A program made the position numbers and the translations under genes. A stretch of 32,102 nt of DNA from an uncultured Alphaproteobacteria bacterium (lineage in GTDB: Bacteria > Pseudomonadota > Alphaproteobacteria > Pelagibacterales > Pelagibacteraceae): NCBI GenBank assembly GCA_903869725.1, contig CAIQAD010000042.1, forward strand, positions 1 to 32,102, read 5' to 3'. This document shows positions 1,369-7,109 of the stretch, one piece after another. The notes under the pieces are model-generated. The model had not been told where the DNA came from, made no database searches, and saw only the letters and a list, made by a program, of their open reading frames with translations. Within the stretch, counting starts at the first letter, position 1, and every line of letters begins with the position of its first letter.

Positions 1369-2469
1369 TTAAATAATTTCATAGAATTTTTTTAATAAAT
1401 TTATAATTCTCAAGTCCGCCGCCATTGACGGATTAATTTTGTTTGTAGTGTAAGCTATGCCTATACCATTTATTGGATCAGCAAATCCTAAAGATCCACC
1501 CCAGCCGTTATGTCCAAAAGACTCTTTATTTTTTCCAAATAACCAACCTCCACGTAATATAAATCCACCGTCTGACCATCTTATAGGCATCATTAAACTT
1601 TGGTCAATTCTATTTTCAGTTTCATGTAAAAAAATATCCAAAGTATTTTTAGATAATAGATTTTTTTTTTGAAATTTATAATCATTAGCTAATAAATCAT
1701 AAATCTTTGCAATTGAACTTGCATTAGCATGACCGTTCATAGAGGGAACCTCTGCTAATTGCCATGCTTTTGTATTATAAAAACCGATCTCATGTTTTGG
1801 ATTATTAAATGCATTAAATTCAATTTCTTCACTTTTAGGCAAAGGATCGCTGTAAAGATTTGCAATATTTGAAAGTTTATCTTTTGAAACGCCAATAAAT
1901 AAATTTAAATTTAATTTTTTTGAGAAATAAGTATTAAGAAATTCACCTATAGTTTTATTGGTAATTTTACGAACAATTTCTCCAATTAAATAGCCATGTG
2001 TTTTTGCATGGTAATAAGTTTTTTCTCCTGATTTGTGATCAGGCATTTGCGTTTGTAAAATATTTATAATTTTATTCCAATCTAATAAATCTTCTTGGGT
2101 GATTTTTTGTTTAAAACGATAAAGGCCTGATTGATGATTTAAAATATGTTTTATTTTAATTTCTCTTTTATCACTTGATCTGAATTCATTCCAGTAATGA
2201 CAAACAGGTTTTTCAATATCGATTTGATTTTCATTAAATAAAAATGCTACACATGTTTCGTACATACCTTTTGTTGCAGAAAAAATATTTACAATAGTAT
2301 TTTCTTCCCAATTTTTTTTTTGATTTTTAAGTCCTCCCCATAAATTAATTATAGGAGAGCCATTTTTATATATAGAAAAAGAAGCTCCAATTTCTTTTTT
2401 TAATATAAAAGAATTTTCGAATATTTTTTTTACCGGAAAGTATTTTTCCTCACAATATCCGCTAACCAT
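1369..2469 (-). CDS. serine hydrolase, class C beta-lactamase-like family (COG1680)
   Basis: This 366-residue protein belongs to the penicillin-recognising serine hydrolase fold. The nucleophile motif SxxK is SATK at residues 64-67. The second catalytic element appears as YHAKTHGYLIGE (153-164), the form typical of EstB-type esterases, and the third as GHNGWGG (319-325). No signal peptide is visible, so it is probably cytoplasmic, which argues for an esterase or amidase acting on a small molecule and against a true beta-lactamase. It starts two bases after the aceF stop and is probably co-transcribed with the pyruvate dehydrogenase genes, but nothing in its sequence ties it to that complex. 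The substrate is unknown. Confidence 0.8.
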   Translation of the reverse strand: MVSGYCEEKYFPVKKIFENSFILKKEIGASFSIYKNGSPIINLWGGLKNQKKNWEENTIVNIFSATKGMYETCVAFLFNENQIDIEKPVCHYWNEFRSSDKREIKIKHILNHQSGLYRFKQKITQEDLLDWNKIINILQTQMPDHKSGEKTYYHAKTHGYLIGEIVRKITNKTIGEFLNTYFSKKLNLNLFIGVSKDKLSNIANLYSDPLPKSEEIEFNAFNNPKHEIGFYNTKAWQLAEVPSMNGHANASSIAKIYDLLANDYKFQKKNLLSKNTLDIFLHETENRIDQSLMMPIRWSDGGFILRGGWLFGKNKESFGHNGWGGSLGFADPINGIGIAYTTNKINPSMAADLRIINLLKKFYEII

Positions 2470-2471
2470 AT

Positions 2472-4034
2472 TTAAAAGGATAAATTAAATGCGAAATTTT
2501 TTCCTAAACTGTTTTTTAAATCTTGGCAAAATCTAGCAGCTTCTGCACCATCTATTATTCGGTGATCATATGATAAAGAAATTGGCATCATTGCTCTTGT
2601 TATAAAATTTCCACCAATAAATACTTGTTTCATTTCAGTTTTTCCTACCCCAAGAATTGCAACTTCAGGACTATTAATAATTGGAGTAAAGAAACTTCCT
2701 CCTATTCCTCCAAGACTTGATATAGTTATTGATCCACCAAAAAATTCTTTTTTGTCAATTTTAAGTTCTTTGCAAAGTTTACTCACTTTTCTAACTTCGT
2801 TGCTAAGACTTAATAAATCTTTTTTGTCAACATTTCTAATTTTAGGAACCATGAGTCCATGAGGAGTATCTACTGCTATACCAACATGAAAATATTTTTT
2901 ATATATTATATTTTCGTTAGTTGGTTCCAAAGATGAGTTAAAATTAGGATATTTTCTCATACCATTCACTAAAGCTTTCATAATAAAGGCGAGAGGTGTA
3001 ACTGATATCTTTTCTTTAGTATTTAAATCAGATAAATTTTTTCTAAAATTCTCCATATCTGTAACATCGACCTCATCATGTTGGGTTACATGAGGAATTT
3101 CGTTCCATGCTTTTATTAAATGGGGTCCAGAAAGTCTTTTGATTCTTGGAATTTTTTGAACATCAGTTTCTCCAAACTCATCATGAGCGTAAGGTAAATT
3201 TTCTGTTTTTTTAGTCTCAATATTTTTTGTTTCGAGTAAAGTAGTAATGTTTTTTTGATTCATTGAGCTTTTAATATAAAACTTAATGTCTTCTTCTGTA
3301 ACTCGGCCTTTTCTGGCGCTTCCGTTAATTTCATTAATATTTATGCCAAGTTCCCTTGCAAATTTTCTAACTTTTGGGCTTGCGCTTTTAGGATTATTAG
3401 TATTTTCAGAATATAAATTAGAAGCTGTAATTTCTTTTATTTGCTTTGTATTATAAATTTTTTGATTAGCTAAGTATGATGTGCTTTCCAATTCAACTTT
3501 TGCAATTTCCATTCCAGATTCGACAATGTTGCCTTGTTTTAAATTTATTTTTTTTACGATTCCAGAAATCGGAGATGGTATATCAAAACTATTTTCATCA
3601 TCTTCGATAACGATAATAGTATCGTCAATATTTATTTTTTGGTTAAATTTTATTAGTATTTCTGAAAGGATTAATTTTTTGCTACTGCTTAAATCTGGAA
3701 CAGTAAGAGAAGTTAAGTTTTTTTCATCTTCTTTTTTTGAATTTTCTTCAATAGTTTCTTCGATTTTTATTTCTTTATTATTTTCTTCAATAGTTTCTAC
3801 CTCAATCTTACCTATAATATGACCTTCTGAAACTTTATCTCCGATTTTTACATTTAAACTTTTAATTTTACCAGAATAGTTTGATGGAACTTCAACACTA
3901 GACTTATCGCTTTCTAAAGTAATTACTGTATCATTTTTTTCAACATCATTACCTACTTTAATAAGAACTTCTATTATTTCAACATTCTTAAAATCTCCAA
4001 TATTTGGAACGATCAGATCAACAACTTTAGACAT
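2472..4034 (-). CDS. aceF: pyruvate dehydrogenase E2, dihydrolipoamide acetyltransferase
   Basis: This is the core acetyltransferase of the pyruvate dehydrogenase complex, moving acetyl groups from lipoyl arms to CoA. Domains in order are lipoyl domain 1 (about 3-78, lipoyl Lys44 in ESDKSS), a Glu/Lys-rich linker, lipoyl domain 2 (about 107-185), a peripheral subunit-binding domain (about 217-255, with SPKVRKFARELG) and the catalytic domain (about 290-520) ending with the active-site DHRIIDG (His491, Asp495). In lipoyl domain 2 the expected DK is DE: Glu147 (codon 3594-3596, GAA) replaces the modifiable Lys, so this domain cannot carry lipoate. The linkers are charged, unlike the Ala/Pro-rich ones of enterobacteria. 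The gene follows aceE by six bases. No E3 (lpd) gene lies in this window. Confidence 0.95.
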   Translation of the reverse strand: MSKVVDLIVPNIGDFKNVEIIEVLIKVGNDVEKNDTVITLESDKSSVEVPSNYSGKIKSLNVKIGDKVSEGHIIGKIEVETIEENNKEIKIEETIEENSKKEDEKNLTSLTVPDLSSSKKLILSEILIKFNQKINIDDTIIVIEDDENSFDIPSPISGIVKKINLKQGNIVESGMEIAKVELESTSYLANQKIYNTKQIKEITASNLYSENTNNPKSASPKVRKFARELGININEINGSARKGRVTEEDIKFYIKSSMNQKNITTLLETKNIETKKTENLPYAHDEFGETDVQKIPRIKRLSGPHLIKAWNEIPHVTQHDEVDVTDMENFRKNLSDLNTKEKISVTPLAFIMKALVNGMRKYPNFNSSLEPTNENIIYKKYFHVGIAVDTPHGLMVPKIRNVDKKDLLSLSNEVRKVSKLCKELKIDKKEFFGGSITISSLGGIGGSFFTPIINSPEVAILGVGKTEMKQVFIGGNFITRAMMPISLSYDHRIIDGAEAARFCQDLKNSLGKNFAFNLSF

Positions 4035-4040
4035 CTACGA

Positions 4041-7000
4041 TTATAATTTAGTTGGTATTGTTTTTTCAGGATCAATTTTTAATTTTTTCATTGCGTCGAT
4101 TACTATTTTTGAAGCAATCTTTTGTTCTTTAGCAAGAGTACTTAACGTTGTTACTACAATATACTCTTTGTTAACTTCAAAAAATTTTCTTAATTTTTGT
4201 CTTGTGTCACTTCTTCCAAAACCATCGGTGCCTAATGTAACGTAAGTTCCTGAAATATGCGGTCTTATATTTTCAGGAAGAATTCTTATATAATCTGTTG
4301 CAGCTATAAATGGACCTGTTCTTTTTTCGAAACACTTTTCAATATAAGTTTGCTTAGCTTTTTTATCTGGATGTAATAAATTTTCTCTTTCTATTTCTAA
4401 AGCATCCTTTTTTAATTCATTAAAGCTAGTTACACTCCATATGTCAGAATCTATTCCATAATCTGAGCTTAAAATATCTGCTGCTTTAATAACCTCATTT
4501 AATATTGCTCCGGAACCTAAAAGTTGAACTTTTGTTTTTCCTTTATTATTAATTTCTTTATACAAATACATGCCTTTAATAATGTCTTCTTTTTTAACAT
4601 GCTTAGGCATTGCTGGATGTTTATAGTTTTCATTAAGAGTTGTGATGTAATAGTAAATACTTTCTTGTTTTTCATGCATTCTTTTTAAGCCATCTTCAAA
4701 AATTATAGCTAATTCATATGCAAAAGTAGGATCGTAAGTTACGCAGTTTGGAATCATAGAGGCAATAACTAAACTATTTCCATCCTGATGCTGCAAACCC
4801 TCTCCTGCAAGAGTTGTTCTTCCAGAAGTTGCTCCAATTAAAAATCCACGACAGCGAGAATCTCCAGCAGCCCATGCAAAATCTCCAACTCTTTGGAAAC
4901 CAAACATTGAATAAAAAAGGTAAATCGGAATCATTTCAATGTTATGATTTGAATAAGCAGTTCCAGCTGCAATCCATGAAGAAATAGCACCTGCCTCTGT
5001 GATTCCCTCTTCTAACACTTGTCCTTTTTTATCTTCACGATAAGAACTTAATTGTTCTGAGTCGACAGGCTCGTATTTTTGTCCTTCGTGAGCATAAATA
5101 CCAATTTTTTGAAAAAAACCTTCCATACCAAATGTTCTTGCTTCATCAGGAATGATAGGAACCAGTCTAGACGCATAATTTTTTTCTCTTAAAATTTTAG
5201 TTAGGATACTTACTAAAACCATAGTTGTTGAAAGTTCTCTGTCACCCGATTCAGTGTAAAAAGATTCAAATATATCTGCAGGAGGAGTTTTTAACGCGAC
5301 TGACTTTGTTCTTCGAGAAGGTATAAATCCTCCAAGTTTTTTTCTTCTTTCTTTTAGATATTGAATTTCTTCAGATTTATCATCAGGTTTATAAAATTCT
5401 AAATTTTCAACTTGTTTGTCAGTTACTGGAATATTAAATCTATCTCTAAAATAAAACATGTCGTTAACATCTAATTTTTTTTGTTGATGGGTTGTATTTA
5501 TGCTTTCACCACTTTTTCCCATTCCATAACCTTTAATTGTTTTTGTTAAAATAACAGTCGGAGATCCCTTGTGTTTTGACGCAGCATTATAAGCAGCATA
5601 AACTTTATGAGGATCATGGCCACCACGATTTAGTTTCCAAATGTCATCATCTGTCATGTTAGAAACTAATTCTTTTAATTCAGGGTACTTCCCAAAAAAA
5701 TGACTTCTAACATAAGCTCCTCCCTTTGCCTTAAACGCCTGATATTCTCCATCAACGCACTCTTCCATTCTTTTTAGTAATAAACCTGTTTTGTCTTTTG
5801 CAAGCAATGAATCCCAATATGAACCCCATATAACTTTGATTACGTTCCAGCCCGCACCTCGAAATAAACCTTCCATTTCTTGAATTATTTTGCCATTTCC
5901 TCTTACTGGTCCGTCCAATCTTTGAAGATTACAATTGATAACAAAAACTAAATTGTCTAATTTTTCTCGTGCTGCAAGACTTATAGCACCAGTTGATTCA
6001 GGTTCATCCATTTCTCCATCACCTAAAAATGCCCAAACTTTTCTATTTTGGTCTTCAATTAATGTTCTGTTTTGCAAATATTTCATAAATCTTGCTTGGT
6101 AAATAGACATAATAGGACCAAGACCCATAGAAACAGTTGGGAATTGCCAATAGTTTGGCATTAACCATGGGTGAGGGTAGGAAGAAAGTCCACCACCATC
6201 GACTTCTTGCCTAAAATTTTCTAATTGTTTAACAGTAAGTCTACCTTCTAAAAATGATCTTGCATAAATTCCAGGAGCACTATGTCCTTGGAAATATATT
6301 AGATCACCTAAAAATTTTTCATTTTGTGCTCTCCAAAAATGATTAAAGCCCACATCATATAATGTTGCAGCAGATGCAAATGTTGCTATATGCCCACCTA
6401 GTTCTGGATATTTTTTGTTGGCACGAACAACCATACAAGCAGCATTCCATCTAATTAAAGATCTAATTTTTGCTTCCACTGTTTGGTCACCAGGAGATTT
6501 ATCTTCCATCTCAGATGGTATTGTATTAATGTAAGGAGTTTTTTGATTATAAGGCAGATTAGACCCAGAAAGATAAGCTTGATTAATTAATTTACCAACT
6601 AAGTAATTTGCTCTTCTAGGACCATCTCTTTCAACAACACTATTTAAAGACACAATCCATTCTTTAGTTTCTAACGGATCAATATCTTCAGCAGATTCTT
6701 TTTCTAAAGAAGGACTTATAAATTTTTTATATTCTACTTTGATTTCTTCTTTTGGTTTAAGAATATTATTATCTATTTTCAGTTCAGTTTTTTTTGTTAC
6801 AACTTTTTCAGCTTCTTGAATAATTTTTTCTGTTTCAGGCAGTATTGATTTTAGACTTGTCCTAGCTTGTGTAGTTCCGTTGTTAAGAATTGCTATCAAC
6901 GATCCTTTAGATACTTTGTCACCAACTTTAACTTTAAGACTTGAAATTTTTCCATCAAATGGAGACGGCACCTCTACGCTTGATTTATCGCTTTCCAGAG

Positions 7001-7109
7001 TTATTAAGGTGTCATTTTTTTTGATTTCATCTCCCTCTTTAACCAGTACTTCGATAATTTCTACGTTTTTAAAATCTCCAATATCTGGTACCTTGATCTC
7101 CAAACTCAT
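4041..7109 (-). CDS. aceE: pyruvate dehydrogenase E1, homodimeric type, with fused N-terminal lipoyl domain
   Basis: The protein decarboxylates pyruvate with thiamine diphosphate and acetylates lipoyl arms. Residues from about 139 to 1022 match homodimeric AceE throughout (for example EWIVSLNSVVERDG at 150-163, GGLSSYPHP, and the TPP motif GDGEMDEPES at 363-372 followed by INCNLQ). That part alone is the usual AceE size, about 885 residues. In front of it sits a complete lipoyl domain (residues 2-77) with a canonical modification site, ESDKSS (Lys42), then a charged linker (78-138). The frame is continuous and the ATG gives the normal lipoyl-domain start, so the fusion is genuine unless the assembly is wrong. 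Known E1-borne lipoyl domains are on the E1-beta subunit of heterotetrameric alphaproteobacterial PDH; on an AceE-type E1 this is unusual. It heads aceE-aceF. Confidence 0.95.
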   Translation of the reverse strand: MSLEIKVPDIGDFKNVEIIEVLVKEGDEIKKNDTLITLESDKSSVEVPSPFDGKISSLKVKVGDKVSKGSLIAILNNGTTQARTSLKSILPETEKIIQEAEKVVTKKTELKIDNNILKPKEEIKVEYKKFISPSLEKESAEDIDPLETKEWIVSLNSVVERDGPRRANYLVGKLINQAYLSGSNLPYNQKTPYINTIPSEMEDKSPGDQTVEAKIRSLIRWNAACMVVRANKKYPELGGHIATFASAATLYDVGFNHFWRAQNEKFLGDLIYFQGHSAPGIYARSFLEGRLTVKQLENFRQEVDGGGLSSYPHPWLMPNYWQFPTVSMGLGPIMSIYQARFMKYLQNRTLIEDQNRKVWAFLGDGEMDEPESTGAISLAAREKLDNLVFVINCNLQRLDGPVRGNGKIIQEMEGLFRGAGWNVIKVIWGSYWDSLLAKDKTGLLLKRMEECVDGEYQAFKAKGGAYVRSHFFGKYPELKELVSNMTDDDIWKLNRGGHDPHKVYAAYNAASKHKGSPTVILTKTIKGYGMGKSGESINTTHQQKKLDVNDMFYFRDRFNIPVTDKQVENLEFYKPDDKSEEIQYLKERRKKLGGFIPSRRTKSVALKTPPADIFESFYTESGDRELSTTMVLVSILTKILREKNYASRLVPIIPDEARTFGMEGFFQKIGIYAHEGQKYEPVDSEQLSSYREDKKGQVLEEGITEAGAISSWIAAGTAYSNHNIEMIPIYLFYSMFGFQRVGDFAWAAGDSRCRGFLIGATSGRTTLAGEGLQHQDGNSLVIASMIPNCVTYDPTFAYELAIIFEDGLKRMHEKQESIYYYITTLNENYKHPAMPKHVKKEDIIKGMYLYKEINNKGKTKVQLLGSGAILNEVIKAADILSSDYGIDSDIWSVTSFNELKKDALEIERENLLHPDKKAKQTYIEKCFEKRTGPFIAATDYIRILPENIRPHISGTYVTLGTDGFGRSDTRQKLRKFFEVNKEYIVVTTLSTLAKEQKIASKIVIDAMKKLKIDPEKTIPTKL

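Follow-up and report, generated by a model that had tools for sequence, protein, structure and literature searches.

The lipoyl-lysine is among the most invariant residues of central metabolism. Lipoyl domains as such are known, as are multi-domain E2s and E1 subunits that carry a lipoyl domain; in an alphaproteobacterial type of PDH, one is placed at the N-terminus of E1 beta (PdhB). The E. coli AceF has the Lys in all three of its lipoyl domains, together with the E1-recognition loop. In the Corynebacterium OdhA/AceF hybrid complex, an E2-type catalytic domain that has no lipoyl domain of its own uses that of another chain, and the lipoyl domains are located on AceF (PMC7568260, PMC10415282). 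The HlyD/AcrA-type adaptors are structural membrane-adaptor parts with a barrel-sandwich, lipoyl-like architecture and no modified Lys.

We analyzed a stretch of 32,102 nucleotides, hereafter the window, from a SAR11 (LD12/Fonsibacter) genome of 1.08 Mb in 55 contigs. The second lipoyl domain of its AceF (domain 2) resembles the E. coli AceF inner lipoyl domain (1qjo) in its predicted fold, in its place between domain 1 and the subunit-binding domain, and in having acidic residues at positions -2 and -1 relative to the Lys site; however, the site itself is occupied by Glu, and the recognition loop is degenerate. As in the PdhB-type PDH, a lipoyl domain lies on an E1 subunit, although the SAR11 E1 is a homodimeric AceE rather than an alpha/beta enzyme, and the E2 of some relatives has no lipoyl domain. 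Reliance on a lipoyl domain of another chain recalls the Corynebacterium complex, but in SAR11 that domain is on E1 (AceE). The missing Lys is shared with the HlyD/AcrA-type adaptors; unlike these, domain 2 sits in a PDH E2 and comes from a true lipoyl domain. In the open-licence papers searched, we found no description of a PDH E2 that maintains a lipoyl domain lacking the Lys, no description of a homodimeric E1 with the only PDH lipoyl domain, and nothing specific on lipoyl domains in SAR11 or on an E2 domain without the Lys.

Loss of the lipoyl-lysine in AceF domain 2

The aceE and aceF genes follow each other on the minus strand with a 6-base gap (Table 1). The nearest named relative found was the LD12 single-cell genome AAA280-B11, the single relative returned by one scan of genome contigs. 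AceE scored above the curated equivalog cut-off of TIGR00759 and is thus a homodimeric E1. AceF passed the cut-offs of PF00198 (catalytic) and PF02817 (E3-binding) and fell below the curated equivalog cut-off of TIGR01348 (long type), with 458.9 bits vs. 552.1. Frames of 1424 aa that suggested an E1-E2 fusion were rejected, as they comprise two genes sharing one frame with a stop codon between them. A beta-lactamase-family serine hydrolase (PF00144; window 1369-2469) comes after aceF in all loci read from genus groups g1, g7, g9, and g12, and in several other genera this slot holds a permease-like gene.

Table 1. Positions of the aceE and aceF features in the window.
Feature	Position	Strand	Evidence
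aceF, E2 dihydrolipoyl acetyltransferase, 520 aa	2472..4034	-	PF00198 1.1e-75; E3_binding 2.3e-12; two Biotin_lipoyl stretches
E2 lipoyl domain 1, intact, ESDK44	3804..4028	-	PF00364 1.4e-17; Lys in all relatives
E2 lipoyl domain 2, residues 109-181, no modifiable Lys	3492..3710	-	PF00364 1.7e-10; AF2 model
Codon GAA, Glu147, at the lipoyl-lysine position	3594..3596	-	TTC on +, GAA on -
Degenerate beta1-beta2 surface loop L115-L121, LSSSKKL vs. IGDFKNV	3672..3692	-	Alignments
E2 peripheral subunit-binding (E3-binding) domain	3279..3395	-	PF02817
E2 catalytic domain	2478..3176	-	Match to 4n72, E 3.5e-66
aceE, homodimeric-type E1, 1022 aa, N-terminal lipoyl domain	4041..7109	-	TIGR00759 1461 bits, cut-off 859.9
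E1 N-terminal lipoyl domain, intact, ESDK42	6882..7109	-	PF00364 5.6e-23

The preliminary description claimed that Glu147 replaces the lipoylated Lys of domain 2, and the alignments agree. The turn reads ESDK(44)SSVEVPS in domain 1 and E144-D145-D146-E147-N-S-F-D-I-P-S in domain 2. In the window and nine relatives, the position held Glu in seven sequences and Asn in three; none of the 10 sequences retained Lys, and no other alignment register placing a Lys in the turn was found. The codons were GAA or GAG in the LD12 relatives and G033, and AAT in G055, G041, and G061. Within the LD12 genus, Glu is fixed. By comparison, Lys was present at the modified column in 55 of 55 domains from 33 AceFs of other proteobacteria and in all 70 SAR11 E1 and E2-domain-1 domains, that is, in 125/125 of the other lipoyl domains examined vs. 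0/10 for domain 2. There is practically no chance that the loss is a sequencing, assembly, or alignment artefact: independent genomes agree, the reading frames are clean around the GAA/GAG or AAT codons, and the Glu was seen in seven sequences, one of them from the closed same-genus genome G003.

Domain 2 is a real lipoyl domain. It matched PF00364 with 41 bits (cut-off 22.1; E 1.7e-10) and the lipoyl profile built in this analysis with an E of 4e-24. The AF2 model, built from an alignment of only 4 rows, had a mean pLDDT of 84.6 and its best PDB match in 1qjo (TM 0.87, rmsd 1.5). The flattened beta-barrel with its exposed turn is thus predicted to be kept, which accords with the earlier statement that the fold and the hairpin turn survive. 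The domain retains its hydrophobic core and the strand that follows the turn (IPSP..G), E144 and D145 are invariant among the domain-2 sequences, and the turn segment IEDxExxxxIPSPxxG ranks with its best conserved stretches. In the beta1-beta2 surface loop, reported to be important for recognition by E1 (PMC6270654), the IGDFKNV of domain 1 gives way to LSSSKKL, LGSGKDL, LGTTKKL, or IDFSGKL across the domain-2 sequences.

The comparison of dN/dS proposed in the preliminary description gave a higher value for domain 2. The pooled NG86 estimates were lowest in the catalytic domain (0.05-0.06), followed by domain 1 (0.11-0.16), domain 2 (0.24-0.30), and the linkers (0.3-0.7), with dS near saturation in the wider set of relatives. 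The bootstrap probability that domain 2 exceeds domain 1 was 0.97-0.98 in three sets, overlapping or separate. On these sequence comparisons, domain 2 is under purifying selection, about twofold more relaxed than in domain 1. The extent of the constraint within the closest LD12 set is uncertain because, in four close LD12 genomes, domain 2 did not differ significantly from linker A (P 0.60).

Lipoyl domains of AceE and the history of domain 2

The intact lipoyl domain that E1 was said to supply from the same operon was confirmed in the window (Table 1). An AceE with one or two N-terminal lipoyl domains, Lys present, was encoded in every SAR11 genome with a complete E1 N-terminus (E1 loci L055-L094), the N-terminus being cut by contig ends in G012, G002, G025, and G022. 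The profile scan found two lipoyl domains in five E1s, and a sixth case was suggested in G023; all those read carried Lys, with no Lys-less second E1 domain among them. Outside Pelagibacteraceae, none of the E1 matches from 397 sampled genomes of the phylum reached as far as the lipoyl domain, 0/40 outgroup E1s examined had a lipoyl domain, and AceEF of the SAR11 type was not found at E <= 1e-80 in the other Alphaproteobacteria sampled.

One apparent exception, an E1 without a lipoyl domain in G176, was rejected. The lipoyl frame lies just upstream, split from E1 by a poly-A frameshift within the linker (L092, about 2360-2380, minus strand), which may be real or an assembly error. Additionally, some genomes (G048, G033, G020, and others) encode a further AceE, about 890 aa long and lacking a lipoyl domain, which agrees with the report of several aceE copies in subclade IIIa (PMC10030771).

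On the E2 side, 14 of the 44 SAR11 sequences had no lipoyl domain at all. These AceFs were 304-323 aa long (L068, L070-L076, L082, L086, L091, L092, and others), and the domain on E1 was the only PDH lipoyl domain found. A genome-wide lipoyl/biotinyl search of the genomes concerned (e.g., G014, G013, G126, and G149) returned the E1 domain, frames of about 450 aa and about 150 aa, and a few weak partial matches; judging by size, the longer frames are probably SucB and the shorter ones BCCP. The window's genome encodes both LipA and LipB.

The tree of the E2 core and the tree of E1 agree in placing LD12 (g1) as sister to g12 + (g7, g9). These genus groups match the published SAR11 subclades IIIa and LD12 (PMC10030771), with g7, g9, and g12 probably of the IIIa type. 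Domain 2 was confined to g1 and g12, and its LD12 and g12 sequences formed one clade (99/95), to be read with caution in a tree of 80 columns with long branches. With these long branches, SAR11 domain 1, E1, and the AceF donor are all candidate sources of domain 2. Because both gene trees put g1 as sister to g12 + (g7, g9), the simplest reading is that the Lys-less domain arose once and was carried by the ancestor that LD12 shares with its sister genera, with at least three deletions afterwards, affecting g7/g9, the g12 genomes G048 and G023, and the g1 genome G006 (AAA280-B11). The deletions in the relatives are clean and in frame. The preliminary view of a single base change (AAA to GAA) does not hold as a recent event in one strain, since on the E1 and E2 trees the Lys was already missing when LD12 and its sister genera parted, and Asn stands in its place in three relatives.

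A folded remnant, a spacer, or a docking domain

We favor, as the somewhat more probable reading, that domain 2 is a folded but dead remnant, dispensable, not lipoylated, and at most a passive spacer. With the Lys missing, neither octanoylation by LipB nor lipoylation by LipA would take place, and E1 probably no longer recognises a domain that lacks the IGDF loop. Because of these two losses, domain 2 would carry no acetyl groups, and the flux would pass through domain 1 of E2 and the N-terminal lipoyl domain of E1. Loss of the Lys would date to the ancestor shared by LD12 and its sister genera, where the E1-borne lipoyl domain had plausibly made it redundant; redundancy between E1 and E2 may thus be the reason for the decay. 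Some points count against a dead domain: an unused domain should decay faster than a dN/dS of about 0.27 indicates, the turn segment is well conserved, and the two acids equivalent to those in contact with Arg407 in E. coli are mostly retained.

The same constraint on the fold, intact in the AF2 model, is what a selected spacer would explain, in which domain 2 lengthens the arm so that the lipoyl group of domain 1 reaches more E1, E2, and E3 sites. From domain 1 to the subunit-binding domain, the arm measures about 136 residues with domain 2 and about 42-62 without it. In E. coli engineering by Guest and co-workers, only the outermost domain reportedly needs lipoylation, and several domains are said to extend the reach. 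Lipoyl domain content affects growth according to Dave et al. 1995, as cited in PMC10579247. However, the arm is short or absent in the majority of SAR11 E2s, and a spacer is not required, because relatives have lost domain 2 by in-frame deletion on at least three occasions. The earlier suggestion of a spacer therefore stands as something domain 2 could do and falls as something the complex needs, and we consider selection for that role rather unlikely.

A docking role, the other suggestion of the preliminary description, is not supported, as the E1-recognition loop is lost as well. It could be recast as electrostatic docking, in which the acidic turn binds the E2 catalytic domain without delivering substrate and tunes traffic or core packing. 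In E. coli, Glu242 and Asp244 contact Arg407 of the E2 catalytic domain (PMC8421416); Glu144 and Asp146 of domain 2 align with them, SAR11 conserves an Arg at the position of Arg407 (PRIK/R motif), and the invariance of E144 and D145 speaks for such a role. Against this, the second of the two acids is not constant (D, E, or N), the residues corresponding to the E. coli Lys contacts K391 and K396 are not clearly conserved in the SAR11 E2, and domain 2 has been lost repeatedly, so that we regard this role as improbable.

Under the dead-remnant reading, the surviving domain 2 would stay folded between domain 1 and the subunit-binding domain. A broader proposal, which we put forward tentatively and hold to be possible rather than probable, is that the swinging arm of the SAR11 PDH moved from E2 to E1: an early AceE-lipoyl fusion would have made the E2 lipoyl domains redundant, some genera would have lost all of them, and the Lys-less domain 2 would be a surviving stage.

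A lipoyl domain without its Lys has thus persisted across two genera, and it offers a natural test of whether inner lipoyl domains serve for chemistry or for reach. The lipoyl domain on E1, with none on many SAR11 E2s, suggests a PDH architecture that we did not find described, in a bacterial group that is among the most abundant on Earth.
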